Source of the DNA: Epinephelus fuscoguttatus
Taxonomy: Eukaryota; Chordata; Actinopteri; Perciformes; Serranidae
DNA: 64,000 nucleotides
Reading direction: 5' to 3'
Assembly: GCF_011397635.1 (NCBI RefSeq)
Contig: NC_064764.1
Location: 42,212,955-42,276,954, forward strand
Under the pieces are notes generated by a model. It saw only the letters and a list, made by a program, of their open reading frames with translations. It had not been told where the DNA came from and did no database searches. The position numbers and the translations under genes were made by a program. The stretch's first letter is position 1, and each line of letters begins with the position of its first letter. Shown here in pieces: positions 4,918-45,731 of this stretch.

Positions 4918-4920
<3 letters not shown>

Positions 4921-19566: not shown

Positions 19567-19675
19567 GTTGGGAAAGGCTTTAAGGAAGCATCCAAACCGC
19601 TGCTTTGTTAATTATTTGATCACTGGACTGATCCAAGGTTTCATGGCTGGTCTAATTTGGTTGCCTAAAGTGTCA

Positions 19676-20030
19676 TTCATTCATTCATTCATCTTCTAAC
19701 CGCTTCATCCTCTTGAGGGTCGCGGGGGGGCTGGAGCCTATCCCAGCTGACACTGGGTGAGAGGCAGGGTTCACCCTGGACAGGTCACCAGACTATCACA
19801 GGGCTGACACATAGAGACAGACAACCATTCACACTCACATTCACACCTACGGACAATTTAGAGTTATCAATTAACCTGCATGTCTTTGGACTGTGGGAGG
19901 AAGCTGGAGTGCCCGGAGAGAACCCACACTGACACAGGGAGAACATGCAAACTCCGCACAGAAGGGCTCCCACGCCCGGGATCGAACCGGCAACCCTCTC
20001 GCTGTGAGGCGTCAGGAAGGGAAGTCAGGA
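19676..20030 (-). mobile_element. 5'-truncated SINE-like retroposon
   Basis: On the minus strand it carries GGTTCGATCCC, a perfect RNA polymerase III B-box-like sequence, then a long conserved body and a terminal (ATGA)n tail (read on the plus strand as CATTCATTCATT at 19676). The A-box side is missing. I recall this repeat as abundant in percomorph genomes (AFC-type). It lies inside the DIRS element, so it is younger than that insertion. Confidence 0.7.
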
Positions 20031-20034
20031 AGGG

Positions 20035-21101: not shown

Positions 21102-22060
21102 CCCTGCAGTCATACATGCTGTCAGCGGCTCATTATATGCGTTCTGGATTAGCAAAATCCACATTAAAACTGTATGACTCTGCATGGTCCTATTTCACCT
21201 CATTTTGTTCAACTTTCTCAGTTGCTATTTTGCCTGTAAATATTCCCACTGTATGTGCCTTCCTGGTTCACTGCTTTGAGTCCCGCAAAATGCAGTCGTC
21301 CTCCATCAAAGGCCTTCTAGCAGGTGTGCAGTTCCCCCTGTGCTGTTTGGATCCATCCACCAACAGCCTGCTAGGAAATCCATCCATTCAACTCCTGCTA
21401 AACAGCTTTAAAAGAGAGAAACCACAAGGCAACGATATTCGTCTCCCTTTCACTCCACCATTATTGCACAAATTAATCACACACTTGAGGGATGGGTGCT
21501 TCGATTCATATACAGACTTACTTTTAGAAACTGTTTTCCTCACAGCTTTTTACGGCTTTTTAAGATACGTAGAGTTCACCACTCGCACAAGATCTTTTGA
21601 TCCTTCTCACGACCTCACTATAGCCGATGTAACAGTTAACAGCCACTACTTTTGTCTGTACTTGAAACATTTCAAAACTGATAGAGATAGGAAAGGAACT
21701 TCTGTTGTAATTGCTCAAACAAATTCTGCTTTCTGTCCGTTTTCTTCCATGGTCCGCTACTTGAGAAGCCGTGCTCAAGCCAGCCAGCAGGAGCCGCTGT
21801 TTGCCACAGAGAGAGGGGAGCCCATGTCATGTGCTTGGTTCACTGCTCGTCTCCGCCTCCTCTGCCAGTCCTGCGGACTCCAACAAGAACGCTACACAGC
21901 TCATTCATTCCGCATAGGAGCAGCTACAACAGCAGCAATGATAGCGCCTGTGTCCACCTTAAAAGCCATGGGCAGATGGTCATCATCTGCCTATGAATGT
22001 TATCTGCACCCTGAGGTTCGAGCCATCCTAGATGCTCAAAAAGCAATGAGTGCTCTGTAA
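21038..22060 (+). CDS. DIRS tyrosine recombinase, open
   Basis: A 340-codon frame without stops. Catalytic positions are visible: Arg in YGFLRYVEF, His and Arg in TAHSFRIGA, and the nucleophilic Tyr in SSAYECYLHP. It would cut and join DNA to integrate the circular cDNA of the element. It overlaps the end of the RNase H frame. It is the only intact gene of this element, so trans-activity is conceivable but there is no evidence of expression. Confidence 0.8.
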   Translation: MSRSFAIQPALPSFPPNGARLTLQSYMLSAAHYMRSGLAKSTLKLYDSAWSYFTSFCSTFSVAILPVNIPTVCAFLVHCFESRKMQSSSIKGLLAGVQFPLCCLDPSTNSLLGNPSIQLLLNSFKREKPQGNDIRLPFTPPLLHKLITHLRDGCFDSYTDLLLETVFLTAFYGFLRYVEFTTRTRSFDPSHDLTIADVTVNSHYFCLYLKHFKTDRDRKGTSVVIAQTNSAFCPFSSMVRYLRSRAQASQQEPLFATERGEPMSCAWFTARLRLLCQSCGLQQERYTAHSFRIGAATTAAMIAPVSTLKAMGRWSSSAYECYLHPEVRAILDAQKAMSAL

Positions 22061-22164
22061 ATGCTGGCTATCATAACAAAAATATAGACCATGGCTTGAC
22101 CATTTTAATCTCTTCATATTTCCATTAGGTTGAAGGTTTTGAGTAATTAGATTTAATTTCCAAA

Positions 22165-23865
22165 TTTCTATTTAAAGAGGTTTTTCCCACTGTGGGTCCA
22201 TCTGTGCTTGCAGTTATTAACAGCAGTCTGTCCTCAGGTGTGGTCCCTGAAAATTTTAAACATGCAGTTGTGCAACCTCTAATTAAAAAAACAGGTATAG
22301 AATCTGCAGTTCTGGCTAATTACAGGCCTGTTTCCAAACTGCCTTTTCTGTCAAAAATCCTTGGAAAGGTTGTCTACAGTCAATTAATGTCCTTCCTGGA
22401 GGAGCACGATATTCTCGAGGTTTTCCAATCCGGTTTTAAAACATTGCACAGCACAGAATCAGTGCTTTTAAGAGTTTTTAATGATATCTTTTTAGCTTCT
22501 GATTTCGGTGACTATGTTATTCTTGTACTTTTAGACTTAACTGCTGCTTTTGACACATTGGACCATGATATCTTGATCTCCCATTTGGAGCACTGGGTGG
22601 GCATCAGTGGCATAGCACTGGAGCAGTTCAGGTCATACTTGGCAGATTGAACTTTTTGTGTGAGCCTTGGTGACTCTGTATCCTCCTCCTCTCCTCTGTC
22701 GTGTGGTGTCCCACAGGGCTCAGTCCTAGGCCCGCTTCTCTTCTTTCTGTACTTGCTCCCACTTGGCTCCATACTTAGAAAGCATGGTATTTTATTTCAC
22801 TGCTATGCGGATGATACTCAGATTTATATGACTTTTAAAAAGAATGAAGCATACTCTGTCAGTCCATTACTTAAGTGTCTTGGTGACATAAAGGCCTGGA
22901 TGGCTCTGAACTTTTTAAATTTTTACGAAAAGAAGACAGAGATGATGGTTTTTGGTGGCACCACTGAGACGCTCTGTCTAGATCTGGGTTCCTTGGCCCA
23001 GTACACCAAACTGAACATCACTAACCTGGGAGTTAAAGTGAACTCTGATCTCAGGCTCGACAATCAGATCAAGGCAGTCGTTAAATCGAGCTTTTTCAAA
23101 TTGAGGCAGCTTGCCAAAATAAAACCAATTCTTCCCAGGCAGCACTTTGAAACAGTAATCCACGCATTTATCACCACTCAGCTGGATTATTGTAATGCAC
23201 TTTATGTGGGGGTTAGTGGGTCCTGCATCAGCCGTCCCCAGATGCTTCAGAACGCCGCTGCGCATCTTTTTAACTGGCACACGTAAACTTGACCACATTT
23301 CCCCCATTTTAGCCTCACTCCACTGGCTGCCCATACACTTTAGGATTCATTTTAAAATTCTTTTATTTGCTTTTAAATCCCTCAATGGTCTTGCTCCACC
23401 CTACCTCTCTGAGCTGCTGCATACGTATTCACCTACCCGCTCTCTCAGGTCAGCTGATCAGCTGCTCCTGAGTGTGCCAAAAACTAAGCGCAAGCTCAGA
23501 GGGGGCCATGCTTTCGCTGTGGCAGCTCCTAAAATGTGGAACGATTTGCCTCTTCACATTAGACAGGCGTCTTCTCTATTTTTAAATCTCTTCTTAAAAC
23601 CCACCTCTTCTCCCTGGCCTTTGACACCCTGGAAGACGTCGATTTTGTTTTTGTTTTATTGTTTGTTTTATTTTATTTTATTGTTTGTTTTTATTGTATA
23701 GCTGTTATTTTTTACAAATGTTTTATGTCTCTTAATTTATTTTACTTGTATTTTATGCCTTGTGTTAGCTGTTTTTGTCTTTTATTTATTCTTCTGTACA
23801 GCACTTTGGTACTCTGTGGTTGTTTTAAAGTGCTTTACAAATAAAGTTGGATTGGATTGCATTTT
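22165..23865 (+). pseudogene. 5'-truncated L2-group LINE, reverse transcriptase and C-terminus
   Basis: Begins within the RT (EVFPTVGPSVLAVINSSL) and contains [34 protein letters not shown] and CYADDTQIY. A stop at about 22650 and a frame change at about 23280 break it. The C-terminus [17 protein letters not shown] is typical of L2/Maui. The 3' end is an AAATAAAGTTGGATTGGATTG tail. The left breakpoint of the 11.1 kb duplication falls inside this element at 23118, so its last 750 bp recur at 34189. Confidence 0.85.
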
Positions 23866-24110
23866 CTCCGCAAACAATAATTATTTTGCCGTGGTCCTGC
23901 TTGATGCCGACTACTACTGCTATTGTTACTAGTCATTCCTCCACTGTTTTACTACACATATAATTATCATTGTCACAGACCTGTACTATCGCGATTAGTA
24001 CATACTCATAAGTGTAAAATACATACCATCATAAACAACTGTTATTGTTCAGCTTTCTATAATTGTTATTGTAGCTGTAGCTGTCATTATTGTTGTTGCT
24101 GTGCATGTGT

Positions 24111-24205
24111 CTCTCAATTCAACAGACTTTATTAGCATAGGATGACATTTAACATGCTGCCAAAGTACACATACAATTAAAAGGCAGTGAATAACATTTA
24201 AATAA
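24111..24205 (-). repeat. LINE 3' tail fragment (unit A)
   Basis: Minus-strand CTTTGGCAGCATG followed by AATAAAGTCTGTTGAATTGAGA resembles the tail of the antisense LINE at 52365-52440 (CTTTGGCAATATTG, AATAAAGATTATTGAAA). The copy in unit B is at 35183-35277. Confidence 0.5.
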
Positions 24206-24397
24206 TTACACAAATAATAGTCAACAGAGCAAACCATGTATCATAGGTGTACTGTATGTATCAGCTTATCAGATCCTCAGTGATCCTACCACCCTCTCCA
24301 CCTAAAAGAGGCAGCAGGTAAAACAAACTCCTGCAGCAGAAAATTAGAACAGCAAGGTACAGCAAATCATTTGCGCCTGCAGCAACTACATCAGTGA

Positions 24398-24900
24398 AAT
24401 ATAGCTGCAAGCAGCAATGCTGGACCTTTAAAGCTTTAAAGCTGGGTGGGATCAAGACCTTTGACGGGCGTCCAAATCTCTACCGGGCCACTCTGTCACT
24501 TCCTATAAGTCAACTGTAGGAACATTTTGGGGACATGCTTTAAAGGCTCAATTAAAGGTCCACTGAGTTTGGGTGATGTTTGAACAAACCTGCGTTGATT
24601 TATGGCCAAATTTTGCGAAAGGTTATTGCACTTGTTTGGAGCTTGTGGCGCCCCCTATTGACCAGTTTCAAAATGCTCTAACAGACGTGGTTCATCAGTA
24701 TTATTTAACATACCATGCAAGTTTTGCAATGATTGGTCACATGCCTTTTTTGCATGCGCTGTGCCCCTACGCATTGTTTTGGTCAGATTCATAAAGCTGT
24801 GCGGACACCTGATTCTCATTTATTAATCTCGATCATTGTGGTGCTGGGTACACGGGCTCGAGCCTCATTCCCACACCCACAGTTCATCATAAACATTTGT
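24398..24900. repeat. unclassified teleost interspersed repeat (unit A)
   Basis: ATAGCTGCAAGCAGCAATG and GTGGCGCCCCCTATTGACCA are phrases I recall from a very common fish repeat with no known coding capacity. It recurs at 35469-35970 by the duplication. Confidence 0.45.
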
Positions 24901-25626
24901 GCCCCTCCACCACTTATCAGACCTGTCTATGACAAATACAATAAAGAAACAACATGTGTTGCATCTGTGAGGTTCTCCAACTTCCGCCCCGATGCGCACA
25001 CACACACAGTTTTCACAGCTCATAAAGATAACACCAGGGAGATAAAAACAAACCTTCAAGAGCTTTCTTGAATTGTACAGGAATCAATTTTAAATATAAG
25101 ATGGCAGAGCACTCCATATCACTGAACCTCTTTGGATTAAACCAAACTGCAGCTGAGATGTTTGACAGACAGGAGACCTACGTTTGTAATTACTTTGGAT
25201 AAAATAATTGTGGCATTGATGATTGTAGGAAAAGTAGGAAAAGTGATCATGAAAATTTCAAGGATGGGTCCTGTTCGGGGAACTGTATGCAAACAGAGCA
25301 ATCTGTAATTAGTTGATTTGATAAACACTGATGATGCCTAACAATGGTTGAGAAGAGTGAGATTGATTATTCATACTGCTCATTTCTAAGGACATAAGAT
25401 ATGAGCAAGTTTGGTAGAATGAGTACTGTTCAAACTAAGTTACAGTGATAACTATATGGATAAACCAAAGGCTCCGTTAGTTATAGTTTAACATAGGTCA
25501 GACTTCTCCTATTTTAGTTATAACTGTGCTGATCTGTTATTTTTCCAAGATAGAGATTTGTAAGGTTGAAAACCCAGAAATTGCTCTGACTGCACTTTTG
25601 AAAAAATAGTGTTATTAATTTTGAAT

Positions 25627-27550
25627 TTAGACACTGGCTATTGTTCCCTGGCACGATGCCAAAGAGAGGTCAACAAGTTTTCTGTATATTGAGAGATTAT
25701 GTATACAGTGAAACAAATCACTTATCTTAACGAGTTCACTGTTTATTCCCGTAGCAGTTTTATCAGGGTTTTTGTATAACCTGAAAACTGTTGTGTCATC
25801 AGAAAATATACTTTGGACCACGTCCAGCCCAGAAGCAATCTTCAAGTGCCCAAGCTAAGGACTGGTATAGATTGGTATGGATTGATACAGATTGGTATGG
25901 ATTGGTACCGATTGGTATGTAATGGTATGGATTGATATGGATTGGTACCGATTGGTATGGATAGGTATGTCAAGGTATGGATTGGTACCGATTGGTACGG
26001 ATTCGTACAGACTGGTACGGATTGGTACAGACTGGTGTGGATTGGTACGGATTGGTATGGATTGGTATGGATTGGTACAGACTGGTACGGATTGGTACAG
26101 ATTGGTACGGATTGGTACAGATTGGTACGGATTGGTATGGATTGGTACAGACTGGTACAGACTGGTACGGATTGGTACGGATTGGTATGGATTGGTACTG
26201 ATTGGTATGGATTGGTACAGATTGGTACGGATTGGTATGGATTGGTACAGATTGGTACGGATTGGTACAGATTGGTACGGATTGGTACAGATTGGTACGG
26301 ATTGGTATGGATTGGTATGGATTGGTATGGATTGGTACAGACTGGTACGGATTGGTACAGATTGGTACGGATTGGTATGGATTGGTATGGATTGGTACAG
26401 ATTGGTACGGATTGGTATGGATTGGTATGGATTGGTACAGATTGGTACGGATTGGTACAGATTGGTACGGATTGGTATGGATTGGTATGGATTGGTACAG
26501 ATTGGTACGGATTGGTACAGATTGGTACGGATTGGTATGGATTGGTGTGGATTGGTGCAGATTGGTACGGATTGGTATGGATTGGTATGGATTGGTACAG
26601 ATTGGTACGGATTGGTACAGATTGGTACGGATTGGTATGGATTGGTATGGATTGGTACAGACTGGTACGGATTGGTACAGATTGGTACGGATTGGTACAG
26701 ATTGGTACGGATTGGTACAGACTGGTACAGACTGGTACGGATTGGTACGGATTGGTATGGATTGGTACTGATTGGTATGGATTGGTACCGATTGGTACGG
26801 ATTGGTACAGATTGGTACAGATTGGTACGGATTGGTACCGATTGGTACGGATTGGTATGGATTGGTACAGATTGGTACAGATTGGTACGGATTGGTACCG
26901 ATTGGTACGGATTGGTATGGATTGGTATGGATTGGTACTGATTGGTATGGATTGGTACCGATTGGTACGGATTGGTACAGATTGGTATGGACTGATATGG
27001 ATTGGTACCGATTGGTACGGATTGGTATGGATTGGTACTGATTGGTATGGATAGGTATGGATTGGTATGGATTGGTACTGATTGGTATGGATTGGTACGG
27101 ATTGGTATGGATTGGTACAGACTGGTACAGATTGGTATGGATTGATATGGATTGGTACTACTATTAAACCAGCCCCGGTGCAAAGTTAGTAAAGATCACA
27201 GTATTATATTATTTTCATTTTGTCTCAGCTGCTGAGACTAAGGAAAGATAATTACTAAAGTCACAAAAACTACACTGTTAACTGTAAATAAGTGCAGCAA
27301 AACCTTCGCTAATATAAAACCAATACTTTATCAGTACAGTGTTTATATTAAAGGCTGCTGACTGCTGACGATGTCCAGCCCATCAATATTTCCTGCTTTT
27401 AAAATCCAGTCCAGATGAATTTCTAATCAAATATCCCGGCTTTAGACAGTTTGGTTGAAACATTACTTCTTTTCTTAAATTCTTCTTCATTTGTTTGAAT
27501 GAAAGATAATGGCCCAGAGACTGATTCCTGAGGTACTCCACAAGTGATGT
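25627..27550 (-). pseudogene. decayed LINE reverse transcriptase, interrupted by a minisatellite (unit A)
   Basis: Minus-strand CGVPQESVSGPLSF (about 27502-27543) is the RT motif normally read [13 protein letters not shown]. The next RT block, FSDDTTVFRLYKNPDK (normally FADDT), is at 25627-25845. Between them lies the 10-bp minisatellite, so the array appears to have grown inside the LINE remnant. The unit B counterpart is at 36683-38192. Confidence 0.6.
25859..27160. repeat. 10-bp minisatellite GATTGGTAYR (unit A, about 1.3 kb)
   Basis: About 130 copies of a 10-bp unit, varying mainly at two positions (TACG, TACA, TATG, TACC), with occasional GACTGG. Because the unit has no stop and a period not divisible by three, long frames are open on both strands with a 10-residue peptide period. 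These are not genes. Confidence 0.97.
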
Positions 27551-27951
27551 AACATCAGATGGATGAATGTCATTATCATTATAAGAAAGGAAGAACTGTT
27601 ACCTGTCCTTGAGGTAACTCGAAAACTAAGGAAACTCAGTTTTATTTCCTATAAGATGGGAAAGTTAATGTACTTAAAGGTATGTAAAATATGCCGAACC
27701 AAATGATTCAGCAGTTTTTGAAAAACAAGTTTTTCCATGACAGGTAGACTTGAGATTGTTCAGTAATGACTGAGATTCGCTGGATCACCTTCTCTGTAAA
27801 CTGGAATGATCTACAGCAGTGACAACACATTACATGTGAGGGAGTGAATGAAACTTGTTACTACTTCTGATCAATGCACTGTATAACTGTGAGTTAATTA
27901 TGGTTATATTTTGGATTTTTAAACTGATCTGCAGCTAATAGTGTATCTTAC

Positions 27952-29317
27952 CTGGATCAGAAAAAAAAAAGCTCCTCATCCGTTCGACTACAGACAGAAA
28001 GGAAGACATGAAGAAAATTATTATTAACATACAGCACACTGGGAGTATAGTTATATACAGGAGTATAGTTATATACAGGAGTATATGTCATATACAGGAG
28101 TATAGTTATATACAGGAGTATATGTTATATACAGGAGTATATGTCATATACAGGAGTATAGTTATATACAGGAGTATAGTTATATACAGGAGTATATGTT
28201 ATATACAGGAGTATATGTCATATACAGGAGTATAGTTATATACAGGAGTATAGTTATATACAGGAGTATATGTCATATACAGGAGTATATGTCATATACA
28301 GGAGTATAGTTATATACAGGAGTATATGTTATATACAGGAGTATAGTTATATACAGGAGTATATGTCATATACAGGAGTATAGTTATATACAGGAGTATA
28401 GTTATATACAGGAGTATATGTCATATACAGGAGTATATGTCATATACAGGAGTATATGTTATATACAGGAGTATATGTCATATACAGGAGTATAGTTATA
28501 TACAGGAGTATATGTCATATACAGGAGTATAGTTATATACAGGAGTATATGTTATATACAGGAGTATATGTCATATACAGGAGTATATGTCATATACAGG
28601 AGTATATGTTATATACAGGAGTATATGTCATATACAGGAGTATAGTTATATACAGGAGTATATGTTATATACAGGAGTATATGTCATATACAGGAGTATA
28701 GTTATATACAGGAGTATATGTCATATACAGGAGTATAGTTATATACAGGAGTATATGTTATATACAGGAGTATATGTCATATACAGGAGTATATGTCACA
28801 TACAGGAGTATATGTCACATACAGGAGTATAGTTATATACAGGAGTATAGTTATATATAGGAGTATATGTCACATACAGGAGTATATGTCATATACAGGA
28901 GTATAGTTATATACAGGAGTATATGTATATGTTTGTTCTGAGACTAAACATTTTGGTAAGAAGAGAATGGGTACTTCACTCAATCATTAGAGAGACAGTT
29001 CATTGGCTCAAATGTTTAAACACACTGTTTCTGAAATGTTCAAATGTGGTTTAATAAAACACAACAACAGTGAGACTGCCAGGAATGCTTCACATCAAAC
29101 ACAAAGGCATTAGGGTGTAACTGAACTACAGAACTATTTACAGCACAAAACTTCTTGTTTAACTGAGTCTCACTTCTTTTTAAAAACATATTTATTCCAA
29201 ATATTTGATGGATTTAAAGCTTTACTTCAACAATCTGTCCAATCTATCATCAGCACAATACAGTTAACTGAGAGGAGAAACATCCTTACCAAGAGTTTTT
29301 TTAGGTGGCGTGGCCAT
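27952..29317 (-). CDS. first two exons of an unidentified minus-strand gene (unit A)
   Basis: Exon 1 (coding 29290-29317) starts ATGGCCACGCC and ends CTTG/GTAAGG. Exon 2 (27952-27987) lies between TCTGTAG and GTAAGA. They join in phase to give MATPPKKTL-VERMRSFFFSDP, with a ten-T run coding the phenylalanines. The intron holds the 18/19-bp array. No later exon was recognised downstream, where only LINE debris is present, so the gene may be truncated. Function unknown. A TATATAAAG-like box lies about 50 bp upstream of the ATG on the minus strand (about 29363-29373). Confidence 0.5.
28042..28926. repeat. 18/19-bp minisatellite (unit A, about 885 bp)
   Basis: Built from three interspersed unit variants: GTATAGTTATATACAGGA (18 bp), GTATATGTCATATACAGGA and GTATATGTTATATACAGGA (19 bp). 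There are no unique spacers. It lies in the intron of the minus-strand gene. Confidence 0.96.
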
Positions 29318-30065
29318 CTTATAGCTGTCATCGATCTGCAGCAAACAGAAGAACGAATGGACTCTTTATATGTCATGTAGCCTTCCTGTTTCATGAACCA
29401 CATGACTCACAAGAAATCTATCCAGTTCCCATCCAACCACTATGTGTGTATGTGTTGGGTTAGGATTGTATTGCTATCTTTGTGAGGATCATTTTTAGTG
29501 TTAAATCACTGTAGTGAGGACATAGAAGTGCAGAGTCAGGAGATGCTGTTGAGGCCCTCTTGATTTTAAGGTTATCATTCAAGATATAAACGTATTAAGT
29601 GAAATCTCTCAGGATAAGGACACAGTGAAGACCTGAGCACAAGCTATTCACTATCATCAAACAAGTTCCTATAAATACCAGTATAACTCATCTCTGGTGG
29701 AATATTTCCATTTCCATCACAACTTCTTCCTTGGCTCCCTCAATACTGGACCAACTGACATTGACATCAGTCTCTTTAAACAATTTACTGGGGGAAATTG
29801 GGTCCAAGTTACAAAATGCTAAAGTTATCTTTTAACCATACTTTGAGCATGCTTTTTAAGCATATATAAGCACATATTCACTCAGTGCAAGTGAAAGTCA
29901 CAGTGCTGGTTTAACAGAATGTGGTGAATGTCTTGTGAGTCATGTGGTTCATGAAAGAGGAGGAACCTGTTATTTAAAAAAAAAGGACCATCGTTCTTCT
30001 GTTTGCTGCAGATCACAGATCAGCCACAGCTACAGGATGGACAAGCAAGGGAGAAATCTTGGTAA
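29288..30065. promoter_or_regulatory. inverted-repeat bidirectional promoter and first exons (unit A)
   Basis: The arm at 29288-29414, read on the minus strand, matches the arm at 29931-30065 on the plus strand. Shared stretches include TCTTGTGAGTCATGTGGTTC, CGTTCTTCTGTTTGCTGCAG and the exon ends CTTG/GTAAG. Each arm spans upstream sequence, first exon and donor. The 516-bp centre is single-copy. The two divergent genes thus have paralogous 5' ends. Both arms contain palindromic TTCATGAA. Confidence 0.8.
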
Positions 30066-30118
30066 GTGTGTTTCTACTCTGTCAAAGTTTTGTGTTGTGA
30101 TGATTGATAGACTGGTTC

Positions 30119-30119
<1 letters not shown>

Positions 30120-30178
<59 letters not shown>
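30120..30178. repeat. (TG)n microsatellite (unit A)
   Basis: About 26 TG dinucleotides just after exon 1 of the plus-strand gene. The copy in unit B at 41332-41391 is of similar length. Confidence 0.95.
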
Positions 30179-30180
<2 letters not shown>

Positions 30181-30527
30181 TTTTATTAACGCTATTAAAA
30201 CACTTCATTCTGTCTTCAGACTAAATGTTGTAACATTTACTGCGTAACACGAACTTAAATAACTTTTACAGTAAACTGCACTTGTTGGAGAGAAGTTTTT
30301 ACACAGCATATTCTCAGCTGAGTAGATTTTTAGATAAAAATGATTACTTTCACTCTGTAATATCTGGATACATTCATCATGTTTTTTCTATCAAGACAAT
30401 AACACACTGAGAGGGAGTGCTGTTTGAGACGACTGAGTATCATCATGGCTGTAAGTTGGTCACTGGAGATAATAACAGCTGTGCTGATATTTAGTCACAC
30501 GGCACCACCTCTCCAGAAATAATGCTT

Positions 30528-31434
30528 TATACAACAGTTCCACAAGAGTCAGTTATTGGTAAACAATAAAAAAGTGACAACAGATTAAGATTTGTTTGTT
30601 TATTCTTTATTGAACTTCACCAACACAAATAGTTCAACAGCTGGACCGAGGCTGGACTGTTGCTAAGCAACACATTTAACATTCCTGCATACTAGCTTTG
30701 TGTCGGTCTGCATGTTACCACAGGCCAGCTAGGCTACTCCCATAATTAAGCAATATCACACGAGAGGGAGTGACGTTGTATTGTATATTGTCATGGCTGT
30801 GATTCAGTCATAGAAGACAGTCATAGCCGTGATGATATACAGTCCAACGTCACGACCTTGAGTGTGATATTGCTTTTATAGAACAGGTCATCAACAGCTT
30901 AAACAGCAATGCTGAGTAAGGAAATGTTAACAAAAGGTGATTAAATAAATTATTTAAGTATGTTATGTAGCTCTGCGAAAAAAAACCCAGTTCCCCCAGT
31001 CTGTTGCCAGGCAACGCAGCTCACACGCCAGGAACTCACAAGCTACTTTGTATTTACATTGATCTGCAGCTGTGTAACTTCGTCCAGTTCAGCTGATGAA
31101 ACACTGGCAAACCTGAATGTTACACAAACACACCTGGAGGTCTGCACTAAAGAGTCCTGGCTTTCCTTTTCCTCGTCCTCTCCTGACAACCACTCATAAT
31201 TTAATTCAAATGTAATTTTGGGGAAAATATAATATAGTGTAACGCTATAGTGTCCGTTTGCGTCAATGTAGCTAGTGTGACAGCTGGTTAATTAACGGTT
31301 GTATTTATATTTATAACACCTGTGAGCGGAGTGATTTTACTGTTACAAGTCCCAGTGATGTTATACTCTATATCAGCACTCACAGAATGCCTCTCGTCCG
31401 ATCAAATTACTCAGTCGGAACTAACTGTTGTATA
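30528..31434. mobile_element. non-autonomous DNA transposon with TA target duplication (unit A)
   Basis: Left end TATACAACAGTTCC and right end GGAACTAACTGTTGTATA form an inverted repeat flanked by TA, suggesting a mariner-like MITE of about 0.9 kb. It carries an internal imperfect palindrome (30748-30876) and no transposase. A 79-codon frame inside is not supported as a gene. It lies in intron 1 of the plus-strand gene. Confidence 0.65.
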
Positions 31435-32619
31435 ATGTACATTAATCTGTGTTTCCAGTGACATATGAGTCTGCTGACAGTCACTGTGGTGGAATACTGT
31501 CATTGTGATGAGTTAACAGCTGATCAGACAGAAACATCAGCTGATGTCACATAAGTATTGGACCCAGCTGCACAACCCTACCTTGCTGGAGTCACAGGAG
31601 AAGAGAGGGAGATTAAGCAAAGAAGCTGCAGTTTGTAGGCTTGCTGACATTCCAAGGGGTCACATGCCACTGTTGACCAATGGTAGCTGAAAACCAGCTC
31701 CACCAGCAAAACTTCATGCTGAGGTGTAAAGAAAATGAACAACCCTGGGACACTGACACTTTAATTCAATTACAGGTAGCTAGTTACTGCCCAAATGATG
31801 ACATATACTTAACAGGGCAATTATAGTAAACGTTGAAATTCACATGTGCACATGATAAAAACTGATCCAAACCCTGAAATTAGAAGGAAAGGAAGGATGT
31901 TTCAACCAGGAGTAACAAATCCAGGAGTACTAAATCCAGATGTTTGTTGATGGAATAACAGCTGTCACAACTGTCCTCCATGCTCTTTTAAAACAGAGTC
32001 CACACAGTGTTGTGAACCACTGACCCTTAAGCCACAAAACATAAAACCAGCAGTGAGTTTTAGCTGATGAATAAGAGCAGCAGTGACTGATGAGAGCAGA
32101 GTAACAATTTGTGTGAAACTCTGAAGGTTAATCCCACTTCTGTAGTTTATTGATGCTGAGGTAGAGACAGTCTGTCTGAATCCTGCAACATGACATCAAC
32201 ACTGAAATCCTCTCTGTTTGGACATTATAGACAGAACTGATGGAGGTAACCAGCCCAAAGGTGGAGTCAGCTCTAATGATGGTGGACCAGACAACCAGTC
32301 CAAAGGTGGAGGCAGCTCTGATGATGGTGGACCAGACAACCAGTCCAAAGGTGGAGGCAGCTCTAATGATGGTGGACCAGACAACCAGTCCAAAGGTGGA
32401 GGCAGCTCTGATGGTGGTGGTGGGCCACACCTACAGGTTAGTTCACTTTGCTATTATTTATTCTTATACAACTAAACTGCAACATTAAATTTGTGTTGAC
32501 AGAAACAACGTTTCAGTAAAATGTTTTCTGACAACATATTTTATTTGTTTTCCGTCAATTTATCTGGTTTTATAACACAAGCAGGATGTTTAGAGCACTT
32601 TGCTCAACCTGCTGCTGAT

Positions 32620-32764
32620 GGATGGAGGGATGGATGGAGGGAGGGAGGGAGGAAGGGAGGGAGGGATGGAGGGATGGATGGAGGGAGGGAGGGATGGATG
32701 GATGGATGGATGGATGGATGGATGGAGGGAGGGATTGAGGGATGGAGGGAGGGATGGACGGACG
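32620..32764. repeat. (GGAT/GGAG)n microsatellite (unit A)
   Basis: Tetranucleotide GGAT and GGAG tract in intron 2. In unit B the corresponding tract is longer (43789-43958), showing independent change after duplication. Confidence 0.93.
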
Positions 32765-34188
32765 GACTTTGTATCTGCTTTAAAGCAACCCGGTCTCAAT
32801 ATGTAGTCGTCTGGCACTTCATCAGTGACGTCTGCCTTCAGACACGGACAAAAAAACCATCCTTTCACAGTGGCATGATACATGTTATGGACTGCTGCAT
32901 TTATATCCAGCTGCCCCAGTAATCAGTCGGCCACATAATGCATAGATCTCTATGCTGCTACACTTCCATTATATTGTAATTTATTTCATGTACTTTCTGT
33001 GTTTATTTACATGTTTTCATCTCTGTGTTTTCTGTGTTTCAGGAAGAAAAGGAACTCAAGGAGAGTCTGCAGAAACTGAAAAAAAGGATGTCAGTAGAAT
33101 GTTTCACATGTATGTACAATATTTATCATCATTGTACATTATCATGTCATTTTATATTTTACAAATACTAATTATATAAATACACTTGGAAATACAAAAA
33201 CCATATGAAAAATATATAAAATGAGTCTCTGAGCATGTTTTCTCTTTGTAGGTGCTGAAGCGTTTGAAAGAGTGCTCTATCAACAAAACTCCAACTGACC
33301 TGAAGGATCTTTTATATTTCTTTAATCTTTTAGAGAAAGAATTACACCAGAAAGGGTTACTGACATGTGAGTGATTTAGTTAATATATATTATTATTTTT
33401 ATATATATAGACATTTTCAGTTCACTGCACCAGGAGGAACCCATTCTCTTCATTGCACCTACTTTGATTTGCATGAAAGCAGCTGAAACTGATATCACTG
33501 AAGTTTAATTGACTTTCTGTTTCACTGTGATCATTAATGAGTGTGACCATTCATTTTTTGAGCAGTGTATTTAAAATTAGCTCTGCCTCAGCAACCTGCA
33601 ACAGTAATAATATTCCAATAATATAATATGTATATGTTTATAAGTTATGGGGGGATTTTTTTTTTCTTTTACTGCTGATCATTTAAATAACACCTAAATT
33701 AACTTTATTATTTTGAGCGCAGGACTTTGTAACAAAGTCTTTTCACAGTGTGGTATTAGCACTCTTAGTCAGAGGGGGACACCAGCTGAATGAAGAATTC
33801 CAGTAAGTTCTTTCTGTGATCCAGGACAGTTCAATCAATGTAAGTGAACATGAGCTGCTCTCTCTCTGAGCCAGAAACCAGGGGAGGAAGTGTTAACCTT
33901 GTGATGTCATCAGGTACAAAGTCTGCAGCTGCTGCAGAGACGACGAATGGAGACTGATATAGTTTGATCTTTAAGTTCTCAGCATTGAAGCAGAAAATGT
34001 TCCCATATACTCAGAACATTCCTGAGAGCTCTCACTGTCATCTAGAACATCGTTCACCATTCATCGTCTGTGGAGCAGCTCCAGACTTTAAACCCTATGA
34101 CATCACAGATTTAAGTTTTAGTGCTCTGGATTTTGGATTTAGGAGAGAGTTGCTCATCTCATATTTTTGGACTGTTTTATACCAGAGG

Positions 34189-34931
34189 AATAAAACCAAT
34201 TCTTCCCAGGCAGCACTTTGAAACAGTAACCCACGCATTTATCACCACTCAGCTGGATTATTGTAATGCACTTTATGTGGGGGTTAGTGGGTCCTGCATC
34301 AGCCGTCCCCAGATGCTTCAGAACGCCGCTGCGCATCTTTTTAACTGGCACACGTAAACTTGACCACATTTCCCCCATTTTAGCCTCACTCCACTGGCTG
34401 CCCATACACTTTAGGATTCATTTTAAAATTCTTTTATTTGCTTTTAAATCCCTCAATGGTCTTGCTCCACCCTACCTCTCTGAGCTGCTGCATACGTATT
34501 CACCTACCCGCTCTCTCAGGTCAGCTGATCAGCTGCTCCTGAGTGTGCCAAAAACTAAGCGCAAGCTCAGAGGGGGCCATGCTTTCGCTGTGGCAGCTCC
34601 TAAAATGTGGAACGATTTGCCTCTTCACATTAGACAGGCGTCTTCACTATTTTTAAATCTCTTCTTAAAACCCACCTCTTCTCCCTGGCCTTTGACACCC
34701 TGGAAGACGTCGATTTTGTTTTTGTTTTATTGTTTGTTTTATTTTATTTTATTGTTTGTTTTTATTGTATAGCTGTTATTTTTTACAAATGTTTTATGTC
34801 TCTTAATTTATTTTACTTGTATTTTATGCCTTGTGTTAGCTGTTTTTGTCTTTTATTTATTCTTCTGTACAGCACTTTGGTACTCTGTGGTTGTTTTAAA
34901 GTGCTTTACAAATAAAGTTGGATTGGATTGC
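34189..34931 (+). pseudogene. duplicated 3' end of the L2 LINE (unit B)
   Basis: Begins abruptly inside the RT C-terminal region at the duplication junction and repeats 23118-23865, including the frame change near RKLDHISP and the GTTGGATTGGATTG tail. Not an independent insertion. Confidence 0.92.
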
Positions 34932-35182
34932 ATTTTCTCCGCAAACAATAATTATTTTGCCGTGGTCCTGCTTGATGCCGACTACTACTGCTATTGTTAC
35001 TAGTCATTCCTCCACTGTTTTACTACACATATAATTATCATTGTCACAGACCTGTACTATCGCGTATTAGTACATACTCATAAGTGTAAAATACATACCA
35101 TCATAAACAACTGTTATTGTTCAGCTTTCTATAATTGTTATTGTAGCTGTAGCTGTCATTATTGTTGTTGCTGTGCATGTGT

Positions 35183-35970
35183 CTCTCAATTCAACAGACT
35201 TTATTAGCATAGGATGACATTTAACATGCTGCCAAAGCACAAAAACAATTAAAAGGCAGTGAATAACATTTAAATAATTACACAAATAATAGTCAACAGA
35301 GCAAACCATGTATCATAGGTGTACTGTATGTATCAGCTTATCAGATCCTCAGTGATCCTACCACCCTCTCCACCTAAAAGAGGCAGCAGGTAAAACAAAC
35401 TCCTGCAGCAGAAAATTAGAACAGCAAGGTACAGCAAATCATTTGCGCCTGCAGCAACTACATCAGTGAAATATAGCTGCAAGCAGCAATGCTGGACCTT
35501 TAAAGCTTTAAAGCTGGGTGGGATCAAGACCTTTGACGTCCAAATCTCTACCGGGCCACTCTGTCACTTCCTATAAGTCAACTGTAGGAACATTTTGGGG
35601 ACATGCTTTAAAGGCTCAATTAAAGGTCCACTGAGTTTGGGTGATGTTTGAACAAACCTGCGTTGATTTATGGCCAAATTTTGCGAAAGGTTATTGCACT
35701 TGTTTGGAGCTTGTGGCGCCCCCTATTGACCAGTTTCAAAATGCTCTAACAGACGTGGTTCATCAGTATTATTTAACATACCATGCAAGTTTTGCAATGA
35801 TTGGTCACATGCCTTTTTTGCATGCGCTGTGCCCCTACGCATTGTTTTGGTCAGATTCATAAAGCTGTGCGGACACCTGATTCTCATTTATTAATCTCGA
35901 TCATTGTGGTGCTGGGTACACGGGCTCGAGCCTCATTCCCACACCCACAGTTCATCATAAACATTTGTGC
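35183..35970. repeat. LINE tail and unclassified repeat (unit B)
   Basis: Unit B counterparts of the repeats at 24111-24205 and 24398-24900, with small indels (for example a shorter CTTTGACGTCCAAATC near 35532). Confidence 0.5.
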
Positions 35971-36682
35971 CCCTCCACCACTTATCAGACCTGTCTATGA
36001 CAAATACAATAAAGAAACAACATGTGTTGCATCTGTGAGGTTCTCCATGCGCACACACACACAGTTTTCACAGCTCATAAAGATAACACCAGGGAGATAA
36101 AAACAAACCTTCAAGAGCTTTCTTGAATTGTACAGGAATCAATTTTAAATATAAGATGGCAGAGCACTCCATATCACTGAACCTCTTTGGATTAAACCAA
36201 ACTGCAGCTGAGATGTTTGACAGACAGGAGACCTACATTTGTAATTACTTTGGATAAAATAATTGTGGCATTGATGATTGTAGGAAAAGTAGGAAAAGTG
36301 ATCATGAAAATTTGAAGGATGGGTCCTGTTCGGGGAACTGTATGCAAACAGAGCAATCTGTAGTTAGTTGATTTGATAAACGCTGATGACGCCTAACAAT
36401 GGTTGAGAAGAGTGAGATTGATTATTCATACTGCTCATTTCTAAGGACATAAGATATGAGCAAGTTTGGTAGAATGAGTACTGTTCAAACTAAGTTACAG
36501 TGATAACTATATGGATAAACCAAAGGCTCCGTTAGTTATAGTTTAACATAGGTCAGACTTCTCCTATTTTAGTTATAACTGTGCTGATCTGTTGTTTTTC
36601 CCAAGATAGAGATTTGTAAGGTTGAAAACCCAGAAATTGCTCTGACTGCACTTTTGAAAAAATAGTGTTATTAATTTTGAAT

Positions 36683-38192
36683 TTAGAGACTGGCTATTGC
36701 TCCCTGGCACGATGCCAAAGAGAGGTCAACAAGTTTTCTGTATATTGAGAGATTATGTATACAGTTAAACAAATCACTTATCTTAACGAGTTCACTGTTT
36801 ATTCCCGTAGCAGTTTTATCAGGGTTTTTGTATAACCTGAAAACTGTTGTGTCATCAGAAAATATACTTTGGACCACGTCCAGCCCAGAAGCAATCTTCA
36901 AGTGCCCAAGCTAAGGACTGGTATAGATTGGTATGGATTGATACAGATTGGTACGGATTGGTATGGATTGGTACCGATTGGTATGTAATGGTATGGATTG
37001 ATATGGATTGGTACCGATTGGTATGGATAGGTATGTCAAGGTATGGATTGGTACCGATTGGTATGTAATGGTATGGATTGATATGGATTGGTACCGATTG
37101 GTATGGATAGGTATGTCAAGGTATGGATTGGTACCGATTGGTACGGATTCGTACAGACTGGTACAGATTGGTACAGACTGGTGTGGATTGGTACAGACTG
37201 GTACAGATTGGTACAGACTGGTACAGATTGGTACAGACTGGTACGGATTGGTATGGATTGGTACAGATTGGTACGGATTGGTACAGATTGGTACGAATTG
37301 GTATGGATTGGTACAGACTGGTACAGATTGGTATGGATTGGTACAGATTGGTACGGATTGGTACAGATTGGTACGGATTGGTATGGATTGGTATGGATTG
37401 GTACAGACTGGTACGGATTGGTACCGATTGGTACGGATTGGTATGGATTGGTACAGATTGGTACAGATTGGTATGGATTGGTACTGATTGGTACGGATTG
37501 GTACAGATTGGTACGGACTGATATGGATTGGTACCGATTGGTACGGATTGGTATGGATAGGTATGTCAAGGTATGGATTGGTATGGATTGGTACTGATTG
37601 GTATGGATTGGTACTGATTGGTACGGATTGGTACAGATTGGTACGGACTGATATGGATTGGTACCGATTGGTACTGATTGGTATGGATAGGTATGTCAAG
37701 GTATGGATTGGTATGGATTGGTACTGATTGGTATGGATTGGTACGGATTGGTATGGATTGGTACAGACTGGTACAGATTGGTATGGATTGATATGGATTG
37801 GTACTACTATTAAACCAGCCCCGGTGCAAAGTTAGTAAAGATCACAGTATTATATTATTTTAATTTTGTCTCAGCTGCTGAGACTAAGGAAAGATAATTA
37901 CTAAAGTCACAAAAACTACACTGTTAACTGTAAATAAGTGCAGCAAAACCTTCGCTAATATAAAACCAATACTTTATTAGTACAGTGTTTATATTAAAGG
38001 CTGCTGACTGCTGACGATGTCCAGCCCATCAATATTTCCTGCTTTTAAAATCCAGTCCAGATGAATTTCTAATCAAATATCCCGGCTTTAGACAGTTTGG
38101 TTGAAACATTACTTCTTTTCTTAAATTCTTCTTCATTTGTTTGAATGAAAGATAATGGCCCAGAGACTGATTCCTGAGGTACTCCACAAGTG
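36683..38192 (-). pseudogene. decayed LINE reverse transcriptase with internal minisatellite (unit B)
   Basis: Second copy of the remnant at 25627-27550: FSDDTTVFRLYKNPDK at 36683-36901 and the GVPQ-like block near 38150-38192 flank the 10-bp array. Confidence 0.6.
36914..37805. repeat. 10-bp minisatellite GATTGGTAYR (unit B, about 0.89 kb)
   Basis: Same unit as in A but about 410 bp shorter. A block containing GGATAGGTATGTCAAGG, found once in A, recurs here (about 37025, 37105, 37555 and 37685), so the array has been internally reshuffled. Confidence 0.97.
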
Positions 38193-38601
38193 ATGTAACA
38201 TCAGATGGATGAATGTCATTATCATTATAAGAAAGGAAGAACTGTTACCTGTCCTTGAGGTAACTCGAAAACTAAGGAAACTCAGTTTTATTTCCTATAA
38301 GATGGGAAAGTTAATGTACTTAAAGGTATGTAAAATATGCCGAACCAAATGATTCAGCAGTTTTTGAAAAACAAGTTTTTCCATGACAGGTAGACTTGAG
38401 ATTGTTCAGTAATGACTGAGATTAGCTGGATCACCTTCTCTGTAAACTGGAATGATCTACAGCAGTGACAACACATTACATGTGAGGGAGTGAATGAAAC
38501 TTGTTACTACCCACTTCTGATCAATGCACTGTATAACTGTGAGTTAATTATGGTTATATTTTGGATTTTTAAACTGATCTGCAGCTAATAGTGTATCTTA
38601 C

Positions 38602-40521
38602 CTGGATCAGAAAAAAAAAAGCTCCTCATCCGTTCGACTACAGACAGAAAGGAAGACATGAAGAAAATTATTATTAACATACAGCACACTGGGAGTATAG
38701 TTATATACAGGAGTATATGTTATATACAGGAGTATAGTTATATACAGGAGTATAGTTATATACAGGAGTATATGTTATATACAGGAGTATATGTCATATA
38801 CAGGAGTATAGTTATATACAGGAGTATATGTTATATACAGGAGTATATGTCATATACAGGAGTATATGTTATATACAGGAGTATAGTTATATACAGGAGT
38901 ATAGTTATATACAGGAGTATATGTCATATACAGGAGTATAGTTATATACAGGAGTATATGTTATATACAGGAGTATATGTCATATACAGGAGTATAGTTA
39001 TATACAGGAGTATATGTTATATACAGGAGTATATGTCATATACAGGAGTATAGTTATATACAGGAGTATATGTTATATACAGGAGTATAGTTATATACAG
39101 GAGTATATGTCATATACAGGAGTATAGTTATATACAGGAGTATAGTTATATACAGGAGTATATGTCATATACAGGAGTATAGTTATATACAGGAGTATAT
39201 GTTATATACAGGAGTATATGTCATATACAGGAGTATAGTTATATACAGGAGTATATGTTATATACAGGAGTATATGTCATATACAGGAGTATAGTTATAT
39301 ACAGGAGTATATGTTATATACAGGAGTATAGTTATATACAGGAGTATATGTCATATACAGGAGTATAGTTATATACAGGAGTATGTGTTATATACAGGAG
39401 TATAGTTATATACAGGAGTATATGTTATATACAGGAGTATAGTTATATACAGGAGTATATGTTATATACAGGAGTATATGTCATATACAGGAGTATAGTT
39501 ATATACAGGAGTATATGTTATATACAGGAGTATATGTCATATACAGGAGTATAGTTATATACAGGAGTATATGTTATATACAGGAGTATAGTTATATACA
39601 GGAGTATATGTCATATACAGGAGTATAGTTATATACAGGAGTATAGTTATATACAGGAGTATATGTCATATACAGGAGTATAGTTATATACAGGAGTATA
39701 TGTTATATACAGGAGTATATGTCATATACAGGAGTATAGTTATATACAGGAGTATATGTTATATACAGGAGTATATGTCATATACAGGAGTATAGTTATA
39801 TACAGGAGTATATGTTATATACAGGAGTATAGTTATATACAGGAGTATATGTCATATACAGGAGTATAGTTATATACAGGAGTATGTGTTATATACAGGA
39901 GTATAGTTATATACAGGAGTATATGTTATATACAGGAGTATAGTTATATACAGGAGTATATGTCATATACAGGAGTATATGTTATATACAGGAGTATAGT
40001 TATATACAGGAGTATATGTCATATACAGGAGTATATGTTATATACAGGAGTATAGTTATATACAGGAGTATAGTTATATACAGGAGTATATGTTATATAC
40101 AGGAGTATAGTTATATACAGGAGTATATGTATATGTTTGTTCTGAGACTAAACATTTTGGTAAGAAGAGAATGGGTACTTCACTCAATCATTAGAGAGAC
40201 AGTTCATTGGCTCAAATGTTTAAACACACTGTTTCTGAAATGTTCAAATGTGGTTTAATAAAACACAACAACAGTGAGACTGCCAGGAATGCTTCACATC
40301 AAACACAAAGGCATTAGGGTGTAACTGAACTACAGAACTATTTACAGCACAAAACTTCTTGTTTAATTGAGTCTCACTTCTTTTTAAAAACATATTTATT
40401 CCAAATATTTGATGGATTTAAAGCTTTACTTCAACAATCTGTCCAATCTATCATCAGCACAATACAGTTAAGTGAGAGGAGAAACATCCTTACCAAGAGT
40501 TTTTTTAGGTGGCGTGGCCAT
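38602..40521 (-). CDS. first two exons of the unidentified minus-strand gene (unit B)
   Basis: Exon 1 coding 40494-40521 and exon 2 38602-38637 are preserved with the same splice sites and the same short product (MATPPKKTL-VERMRSFFFSDP) as in unit A. Further exons are again not seen; the next recognisable sequence leftwards is LINE debris. The intron carries a longer 18/19-bp array. Confidence 0.5.
38692..40128. repeat. 18/19-bp minisatellite (unit B, about 1.44 kb)
   Basis: Same three unit variants as in unit A. A rare variant GTATGTGTTATATACAGGA occurs at 39381 and again at 39882 with matching neighbours, pointing to an internal duplication of about 501 bp. Confidence 0.96.
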
Positions 40522-41275
40522 CTTATAGCTGTCATCGATCTGCAGCAAACAGAAGAACGAATGGACTCTTTATATGTCATGTAGCCTTCCTGTTTCATGA
40601 ACCACATGACTCACAAGAAATCTATCCAGTTCCCATCCAACCACTATGTGTGTATGTGTTGGGTTAGGATTGTATTGCTATCTTTGTGAGGATCATTTTT
40701 AGTGTTAAATCACTGTAGTGAGGACATAGAAGTGCAGAGTCAGGAGATGCTGTTGAGGCCCTCTTGATTTTAAGGTTATCATTCAAGATATAAACGTATT
40801 AAGTGAAATCTCTCAGGATAAGGACACAGTGAAGACCTGAGCACAAGCTATTCACTATCATCAAACAAGTTCCTATAAATACCAGTATAACTCATCTCTG
40901 GTGGAATATTTCCATTTCCATCACAACTTCTTCCTTGGCTCCCTCAATACTGGACCAACTTCAAACATTGTTGACATCAGTCTCTTTAAACAATTTACAG
41001 GGGGAAATTGGGTCCAAGTTACAAAATGCTAAAGTTATCTTTTAACCATACTTTGAGCATGCTTTTTAAGCATATATAAGCACATATTCACTCAGTGCAA
41101 GTGAAAGTCACAGTGCTGGTTTAACAGAATGTGGTGAATGTCTTGTGAGTCATGTGGTTCACGAAAGAGGAGGAACCTGTTATTTAAAAAAAAAGGACCA
41201 TCGTTCTTCTGTTTGCTGCAGATCACAGATCAGCCACAGCTACAGGATGGACAAGCAAGGGAGAAATCTTGGTAA
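40492..41275. promoter_or_regulatory. inverted-repeat bidirectional promoter and first exons (unit B)
   Basis: Same head-to-head arrangement as 29288-30065, with arms at about 40492-40618 and 41141-41275. First codons and donor sites of both genes are unchanged. Confidence 0.78.
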
Positions 41276-41328
41276 GTGTGTTTCTACTCTGTCAAAGTTT
41301 TGTGTTGTGATGATTGATAGACTGGTTC

Positions 41329-41392
<64 letters not shown>

Positions 41393-44300
41393 TTTTATTA
41401 ACGCTATTAAAACACTTCATTCTGTCTTCAGACTAAATGTTGTAACATTTACTGCGTAACACGAACTTAAATAACTTTTACAGTAAACTGCACTTGTTGG
41501 AGAGAAGTTTTTACACAGCATATTCTCAGCTGAGTAGATTTTTAGATAAAAATAATTACTTTCACTCTGTAATATCTGGATACATTCATCATGTTTTTTC
41601 TATCAAGACAATAACACACTGAGAGGGAGTGCTGTTTGAGACGACTGAGTATCATCATGGCTGTAAGTTGGTCACTGGAGATAATAACAGCTGTGCTGAT
41701 ATTTAGTCACACGACACCACCTCTCCAGAAATAATGCTTTATACAACAGTTCCACAAGAGTCAGTTATTGGTAAACAATAAAAAGTGACAACAGATTAAG
41801 ATTTGTTTGTTTATTCTTTATTGAACTTCACCAACACAAATAGTTCAACAGCTGGACCGAGGCTGGACTGTTGCTAACACATTTAACATTCCTGCATACT
41901 AGCTTTGTGTCGGTCTGCATGTTACCACAGGCCAGCTAGGCTACTCCCATAATTAAGCAATATCACACGAGAGGGAGTGACGTTGTATTGTATATTGTCA
42001 TGGCTGTGATTCAGTCATAGAAGACAGTCATAGCCGTGATGATATACAGTCCAACGTCACGACCTTGAGTGTGATATTGCTTTTATAGAACAGGTCATCA
42101 ACAGCTTAAACAGCAATGCTGAGTAAGGAAATGTTAACAAAAGGTGATTAAATAAATTATTTAAGTATGTTATGTAGCTCTGCGAAAAAAAACCCAGTTC
42201 CCCCAGTCTGTTGCCAGGCAACGCAGCTCACACGCCAGGAACTCACAAGCTACTTTGTATTTACATTGATCTGCAGCTGTGTAACTTCGTCCGGTTCAGC
42301 TGATGAAACACTGGCAAACCTGGATGTTACACAAACACACCTGGAGGTCTGCACTAAAGAGTCCTGGCTTTCCTTTTCCTCGTCCTCTCCTGACAACCAC
42401 TCATAATTTAATTCAAATGTAATTTTGGGGAAAATATCCATCTTCTTGGTGTAACGCTATAGTGTCCGTTTGCGTCAATGTAGCTAGTGTGACAGCTGGT
42501 TAATTAACGGTTGTATTTATATTTATAACACCTGTGAGCGGAGTGATTTTACTGTTACAAGTCCCAGTGATGTTATACTCTATATCAGCACTCACAGAAT
42601 GCCTCTCGTCCGATCAAATTACTCAGTCGGAACTAACTGTTGTATAATGTACATTAATCTGTGTTTCCAGTGACATATGAGTCTGCTGACAGTCACTGCG
42701 GTGGAATACTGTCATTGTGATGAGTTAACAGCTGATCAGACAGAAACATCAGCTGATGTCACATAAGTATTGGACCCAGCTGCACAACCCTACCTTGCTG
42801 GAGTCACAGGAGAAGAGAGGGAGATTAAGCAAAGAAGCTGCAGTTTGTAGGCTTGCTGACATTCCAAGGGGTCACATGCCACTGTTGACCAATGGTAGCT
42901 GAAAACCAGCTCCACCAGCAAAACTTCATGCTGAGGTGTAAAGAAAAATGAACAACCCTGGGACACTGACACTTTAATTCAATTACAGGTAGCTAGTTAC
43001 TGCCCAAATGATGACATATACTTAACAGGGCAATTATAGTAAACGTTGAAATTCACATGTGCACATGATAAAAACTGATCCAAACCCTGAAATTAGAAGG
43101 AAAGGAAGGATGTTTCAACCAGGAGTAACAAATCCAGGAGTACTAAATCCAGATGTTTGTTGATGGAATAACAGCTGTCACAACTGTCCTCCATGCTCTT
43201 TTAAAACAGAGTCCACACAGTGTTGTGAACCACTGACCCTTAAGCCACAAAACATAAAACCAGCAGTGAGTTTTAGCTGATGAATAAGAGCAGCAGTGAC
43301 TGATGAGAGCAGAGTAACAATTTGTGTGAAACTCTGAAGGTTAATCCCACTTCTGTAGTTTATTCATGCTGAGGTAGAGACAGTCTGTCTGAATCCTGCA
43401 ACATGACATCAACACTGAAATCCTCTCTGTTTGGACATTATAGACAGAACTGATGGAGGTAACCAGCCCAAAGGTGGAGTCAGCTCTAATGATGGTGGAC
43501 CAGACAACCAGTCCAAAGGTGGAGGCAGCTCTAATGATGGTGGACCAGACAACCAGTCCAAAGGTGGAGGCAGCTCTGTTGATGGTGGTGGTGGGCCACA
43601 CCTACAGGTTAGTTCACTTTGCTATTATTTATTCTTATACAATTAAACTGCAACATTAAATTTGTGTTGACAGAAACAACGTTTCAGTAAAATGTTTTCT
43701 GACAACATATTTTATTTGTTTTCCGTCAATTTATCTGGTTTTATAACACAAGCAGGATGTTTAGAGCACTTTGCTCAACCTGCTGCTGATGGATGGATGG
43801 ATGGATGGAGGGAGGGATGGATGGAGGGAGGGAGGGAGGAAGGGAGGGAGGGATGGAGGGATGGATGGAGGGAGGGAGGGATGGATGGATGGATGGATGG
43901 ATGGATGGATGGATGGAGGGAGGGATTGAGGGATGGATGGAGGGAGGGATGGACGGACTTTGTATCTGCTTTAAAGCAACCCGGTCTCAATATGTAGTCG
44001 TCTGGCACTTCATCAGTGACGTCTGCCTTCAGACACGGACAAAAAAACCATCCTTTCACAGTGGCATGATACATGTTATGGACTGCTGCATTTATATCCA
44101 GCCGCCCCAGTAATCAGTCGGCCACATAATGCATAGATCTCTATGCTGCTACACTTCCATTACATTGTAATTTATTTCATGTACTTTCTGTGTTTATTTA
44201 CATGTTTTCATCTCTGTGTTTTCTGTGTTTCAGGAAGAAAAGGAACTCAAGGAGAGTCTGCAGAAACTGAAAAAAAGGATGTCAGTAGAATGTTTCACAT

Positions 44301-45731
44301 GTATGTACAATATTTATCATCATTGTACATTATCATGTCATTTTATATTTTACAAATACTAATTATATAAATACACTTGGAAATACAAAAACCATATGAA
44401 AAATATATAAAATGAGTCTCTGAGCATGTTTTCTCTTTGTAGGTGCTGAACGTTTGAAAGAGTGCTCTATCAACAAAACTCCAACTGACCTGAAGGATCT
44501 TTTATATTTCTTTAATCTTTTAGAGAAAGAATTACACCAGAAAGGGTTACTGACATGTGAGTGATTTAGTTAATATATATTATTATTTTTATATATATAG
44601 ACATTTTCAGTTCACTGCACCAGGAGGAACCCATTCTCTTCATTGCACCTACTTTGATTTGCATGAAAGCAGCTGAAACTGATATCACTGAAGTTTAATT
44701 GACTTTCTGTTTCACTGTGATCATTAATGAGTGTGACCATTCATTTTTTGAGCAGTGTATTTAAAATTAGCTCTGCCTCAGCAACCTGCAACAGTAATAA
44801 TATTCCAATAATATAATATGTATATGTTTATAAGTTATGGGGGGATTTTTTTTTTCTTTTACTGCTGATCATTTAAATAACACCTAAATTAACTTTATTA
44901 TTTTGAGCGCAGGACTTTGTAACAAAGTCTTTTCACAGTGTGGTATTAGCACTCTTAGTCAGAGGGGGACACCAGCTGAATGAAGAATTCCAGTAAGTTC
45001 TTTCTGTGATCCAGGACAGTTCAATCAATGTAAGTGAACATGAGCTGCTCTCTCTCTGAGCCAGAAACCAGGGGAGGAAGTGTTAACCTTGTGATGTCAT
45101 CAGGTACAAAGTCTGCAGCTGCTGCAGAGACGACGAATGGAGACTGATATAGTTTGATCTTTAAGTTCTCAGCATTGAAGCAGAAAATGTTCCCATATAC
45201 TCAGAACATTCCTGAGAGCTCTCACTGTCATCTAGAACATCGTTCACCATTCATCGTCTGTGGAGCAGCTCCAGACTTTAAACCCTATGACATCACAGAT
45301 TTAAGTTTTAGTGCTCTGGATTTTGGATTTAGGAGAGAGTTGCTCATCTCATATTTTTGGACTGTTTTATACCAGAGGAATAACAATGATGGATTTTGAA
45401 AACGGGCAAAGTTCCCCTTTAGCTAAATGATCCAAATACTTCCTCCACCTCTGAAACCTGAGTGTTGAAATGTATTCACAACTGTTTGTTTATCTTTCAG
45501 CAATGTGGCCTTTCACATTCAGTTGGTTTTGTCCAGCACTATCTGCAGTGAAGGTGTTCTCTGTCGTCACTGGTGAGACCTTTGGTGCTGATGAGGCCAT
45601 ACTGACACAACTGAAGAAAAGTGAAGCAGTGGAGACCAATGACCTGCACGAATGTGATGTCATCATCGTCTTCTGTTCAGTCAAGTCTCGTGTTGCATCA
45701 GATGTGGATGCAGCCATGAGAAAGGATTCAG
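41247..45731 (+). CDS. unidentified coiled-coil plus Rossmann-like gene (unit B, exons 1-5)
   Basis: Exons 41247-41271, 43444-43607, 44234-44300, 44443-44556 and 45501-45731 all join in phase (about 200 codons so far). The order is a short N-terminus, a glycine-rich segment with about two and a half 15-residue repeats, a charged helical segment ([17 protein letters not shown]), then a globular part. Exon 5 reads [20 protein letters not shown], then [20 protein letters not shown], suggesting an alternating beta/alpha fold. I recall similar multicopy uncharacterised fish proteins but no known function. Exon 5 ends at a donor (TCAG/GTAATG) and must continue, but a degenerate LINE begins 110 bp later and no next exon was found. 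Exon 5 lies outside the duplication, so this is the only copy that has it. Confidence 0.7.
41332..41391. repeat. (TG)n microsatellite (unit B)
   Basis: Unit B counterpart of the TG tract after exon 1. Confidence 0.95.
41740..42646. mobile_element. non-autonomous DNA transposon with TA target duplication (unit B)
   Basis: Copy of the 30528-31434 element by segmental duplication. Near 42437 it has ATCCATCTTCTTGG where unit A has ATAATATAG, a local block difference. Confidence 0.65.
43789..43958. repeat. (GGAT/GGAG)n microsatellite (unit B)
   Basis: Longer version of the unit A tract in intron 2; the apparent Met/Asp/Gly-rich frames are artefacts. Confidence 0.93.

Follow-up and report, generated by a model that had tools for sequence, protein, structure and literature searches.

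A window of 64,000 nucleotides from Epinephelus fuscoguttatus, the whole stretch analysed here (positions 42,212,955–42,276,954 of contig 13, C13, which is 43.7 Mb long in a genome of 1.047 Gb and 26 contigs), holds two very similar units of about 11 kb side by side. Their arrangement raises the question of whether both units lie on one chromosome and, if so, how the second came to be joined to the first. We consider it likely that the locus is a real and evolutionarily young head-to-tail segmental duplication, formed through a microhomology-mediated template switch or end joining. Coordinates below are those of the window unless a contig is named.

The two units and their edges

Self-alignment placed unit 1 at 23118–34188 (11,071 bp) and unit 2 at 34189–45378 (11,190 bp), both on the plus strand. 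Self-BLAST paired 23118–26738 with 34189–37804, and 28042–34193 with 39230–45383. The copies adjoin in direct orientation, as a microhomology-mediated tandem duplication demands. The motif AATAA occurs at the left edge (23118–23122), at the junction (34189–34193) and at the right edge (45379–45383). A preliminary description of this DNA had reported a direct tandem duplication of about 11 kb with AATAA at three breakpoints; self-comparison and self-alignment reproduced its coordinates exactly. At the junction, as had also been proposed, the sequence to the left of the right edge continues into the sequence to the right of the left edge, and the two have exactly five bases in common.

A LINE (approximately 22147–23863, plus strand; labelled "L2" in the preliminary description) contains the left edge. 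This element was recognized by a Pfam match to RVT_1 (reverse transcriptase; 22651–23283, E = 1.7e-14) and by dispersed copies that are about 88–93% alike. In all four LINE loci compared, an aligned piece spans the edge. Three of them cross 23118 in one aligned piece; the alignment of the fourth (L007) is divided, and the second of its two main pieces (23054–23813) spans the site. When the junction stretch was compared instead, all four loci aligned only from 34189 or 34193 on. The left edge is polarized by the LINE copies only, because the arm of the inverted duplication described below lacks the stretch around this edge. A 13-base inverted match (92%) joins 23116–23128, which covers the left-edge AATAA, to 23662–23674; such short pairs often occur by chance. 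At 18516–22060 lies a retroelement, presumably DIRS-like. It has a match to Phage_integrase (tyrosine-recombinase-like, E = 9.7e-05) and a weak one to reverse transcriptase, neither of which reaches its cut-off.

The right edge falls in a dispersed repeat of foldback type (about 44963–45421, plus strand), recognized by its dispersed copies and inverted arms. A 401-base query across the edge gave 48 matches. Those that span the edge are the query locus, 37 dispersed copies and the match in the inverted paralogue; the match in unit 1 stops at the edge, and eight short inverted pieces fall short of it. Since 40 of 1,806 candidates were scored, the copy number of the repeat is at least that listed. 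All five dispersed copies that were compared reach 45421, with left limits from 44963 to 45176 and some alignments in pieces. In the window, the inverted arms of the repeat (45040–45148 and 45239–45347) are 72% complementary and end 31 bp before the right breakpoint. A self-inverted match was present in three of the five dispersed copies and, at the threshold used, in neither of the other two. As single-stranded DNA, 45080–45460 is predicted to fold better than 100 of 100 shuffled sequences (z = −5.0). Inverted arms near the right breakpoint fit with fork stalling, although with so many repeats in the window such neighbors would be likely anyway.

The preliminary description had placed the left edge in a LINE, which the reverse transcriptase and the copies bear out, and the right edge in a gene intron. 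The latter account was incomplete, as the edge lies within the dispersed repeat; a putative exon (45548–45730, plus strand), outside both units, follows about 165 bp downstream. The inverted paralogue preserves the open frame of this exon, with 90% of 61 amino acids alike; AG precedes the exon, which ends at AG|GT, and a Pfam search with it gave no match. Unit 1 lacks the exon and would therefore hold a partial gene copy if the gene to which the exon belongs reaches leftward into the unit. A search of the window for tRNA found none. Searches of solved structures, in which one query was the open reading frame 58737–59009 (without bearing on the duplication), gave no match.

Other copies of the two repeats, the LINE and the foldback-type element, continue across the outer edges. 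Both ends of the unit therefore lie within older elements; the outer edges are ancestral and 34189 is derived. The same copies led us to reject the idea that AATAA is a target-site duplication left by the insertion of a mobile unit. The identical five bases at all three edges speak for such an insertion, but its probability is negligible given that other copies of both elements continue across the sites at which it would have begun and ended.

The junction and how it may have formed

How often would five bases be shared by chance? When about 362,000 joins were drawn at random in the window, 0.64% had five or more in common, and the figure was again 0.64% for all 360,000 joins no more than 300 bp from the two breakpoints. 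The microhomology at the junction is above chance expectation, though this is a single event, and it exceeds the minimum of two common bases given in passages of PMC4056370. No extended homology was found between the breakpoints when 1.5 kb on each side of them was compared; the best match (37 bp, 84%, E = 0.11) lies away from the edges. Homologous recombination is unlikely because the breakpoints lack alignable homology. Unequal crossing-over between repeats at both edges has in its favor that both edges do lie in dispersed repeats. However, apart from the five bases, nothing at the edges can be aligned between the two repeats, and the long homology at both edges on which non-allelic homologous recombination depends was not found; we rejected this explanation as scarcely credible. 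The claim of a microhomology-mediated origin, rather than recombination between long repeats, thus held up, with five bases in common, edges without longer homology, ancestral outer edges and a derived center.

The junction is simple and contains no inserted bases. A single template switch would leave none; extra bases or several switches are diagnostic if present and are not required. According to passages of PMC4056370, template switching and end joining cannot be distinguished by means of a simple junction; the same passages report simple ends with microhomology in 41% of 644 fly variants, a weak yardstick here because tandem duplications make up only 2 of 50 of the insertions in that source. 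PMC2518615 describes yeast segmental duplications that arose by template switching between microhomologies. The locus resembles FoSTeS/MMBIR and the yeast MMIR of that source in its head-to-tail copy, the few junction bases in common, the lack of long homology and the position of the edges in repeats. It differs from those cases in having one simple junction free of inserted bases and a mechanism that is only proposed.

We propose that, close to the foldback-type repeat, a fork may have stalled or an end broken at the right edge. The stalled or broken end would then have re-annealed through AATAA 11 kb back, in the LINE, so that the stretch was copied again in an event of the FoSTeS/MMBIR/MMIR type. 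Alternatively, two breaks on sister or homologous chromatids could have been joined by microhomology-mediated end joining, which would produce the same kind of junction and is here indistinguishable from template switching. A different route would leave an identical structure: excision or copying of the unit could have produced a circle, closed through AATAA, that then recombined into its own locus. Circular intermediates have been proposed for some human segmental duplications (PMC7450558). Nothing in the sequence demands a circle, however, and the one-step models are simpler; we regard the circular route as very improbable.

Divergence of the units and the possibility of two haplotypes

Outside the VNTRs, the units were compared in five blocks totaling 8,511 aligned columns, which contain 39 mismatches (0.46%; 24 are transitions) and 16 gaps totaling 52 bases. 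Nine of the mismatches fall in two clusters adjoining indels (29757–29760 and 31231–31236), without which 30 mismatches remain, or about 0.35%. A single alignment of the units minus only the two VNTRs gave 45 mismatches and 15 gaps. The VNTRs (all plus strand) are strongly unequal in copy number and in opposite directions: the 20-bp VNTR has 65.5 copies in unit 1 (25859–27158) and 44.5 in unit 2 (36915–37803), whereas the 37-bp VNTR has 23.9 copies in unit 1 (28042–28930) and 38.9 in unit 2 (38692–40134). Under the proposed mechanism, the units would have drifted apart after the duplication, the VNTRs most of all.

These differences also look allele-like. Heterozygosity in three vertebrates ranges from 0.22 to 0.95% in a table of PMC9516828; 0.46% is thus also an ordinary allelic difference, and the two units could be alleles. 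The assembly might then have placed two haplotypes of one 11 kb locus in series, with each chromosome carrying one unit only. False duplications beside their partner are documented in passages of PMC9516828, which give as their marks a read depth reduced to half, gaps separating the two copies, discordant read pairs and single-copy k-mers. The locus resembles these false heterotype duplications in its adjacent, slightly different copies and in the length differences of the VNTRs. It departs from them in that no gap separates the copies: the 214 kb around the seam contain no N, and gaps between copies are a primary mark in those passages, although the wrong gap filling also described there is conceivable here. 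The seam itself is exact, with five bases in common, a value that an arbitrary join reaches in 0.64% of cases. The exact seam and the uninterrupted 214 kb make haplotypes in series the less likely account, and we consider it unlikely overall.

A 501-base piece of the unit (29150–29650) was also used as a query; 40 of 99 candidates were scored, and 43 matches were obtained. Both units match over the full length and the inverted arm matches in part, at 87%; the other 40 matches are short or weaker, and many of them are to a dispersed repeat in which the query ends. Among the matches listed, there was no separate allelic copy of the unit.

An older inverted duplication around the units

The units lie in the right arm (441–45772, matched in pieces) of an inverted segmental duplication. 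The left arm (C13:42178379–42204402, or window-relative −34575 to −8552) lies outside the window, 9 to 35 kb upstream, the spacer is about 9 kb, and the arms are broken up by transposable elements. The inverted paralogue matches one unit's worth of sequence and runs on through the right edge. A three-way comparison was possible over 3,439 non-VNTR columns common to all three sequences (the unit has 8,462 such bases). The paralogue differs from unit 1 at 97 sites and from unit 2 at 100, and the units differ from each other at 11. The divergence of the paralogue from the units is 2.8–2.9% over these columns, a low estimate for the arms because the columns compared are the well-aligning ones. With 11 differences against 97 and 100, the tandem event is the younger; if rates were equal, the inverted duplication would be roughly nine times older than the split between the units. 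The best reading of these alignments is that the tandem duplication is probably nested in one arm of the older inverted duplication. Polarized by the inverted arm, the 11 usable sites comprise four changes in unit 1 and seven in unit 2, a distribution that does not separate alleles from paralogues.

Both inverted arms carry exons of a GTPase-like gene (window 7800–9149, minus strand), with Pfam matches to MMR_HSR1 and RsgA_GTPase that are both below cut-offs. We take this gene to resemble the interferon-induced IFI44-like family. One of its exons, used as a query against the genome, gave 21 matches: 2 local, 17 on C19 (27.32–27.47 Mb), 1 on C11 and 1 on C14. The inverted duplication and the hairpin-forming repeat might together act as a recurrent source of template switches, the tandem copy being one of several copy-number alleles that segregate beside the GTPase-like gene; we view this idea as unlikely.

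The arms have other features. A 23-bp VNTR with 61 copies (2699–4101) has a counterpart in the inverted arm. Copies of a Tc1-like transposon (Pfam HTH_Tnp_Tc3_2) that are about 99% alike occupy 4910–6546, 12571–13211 and window-relative −19163 to −17527. The left-arm copy is flanked by stretches that match 7800 and 7801 and is therefore at a different site from the copy at 4910–6546; this insertion is absent from the right arm.

The duplication looks ordinary in kind, like a usual accident of copying or repair, with nothing new in it. What the locus offers is a clean and polarized microhomology junction of young age, set within an inverted duplication that is older. It leaves the general view unchanged and is useful as a test case for telling true tandem copies from haplotype artefacts.
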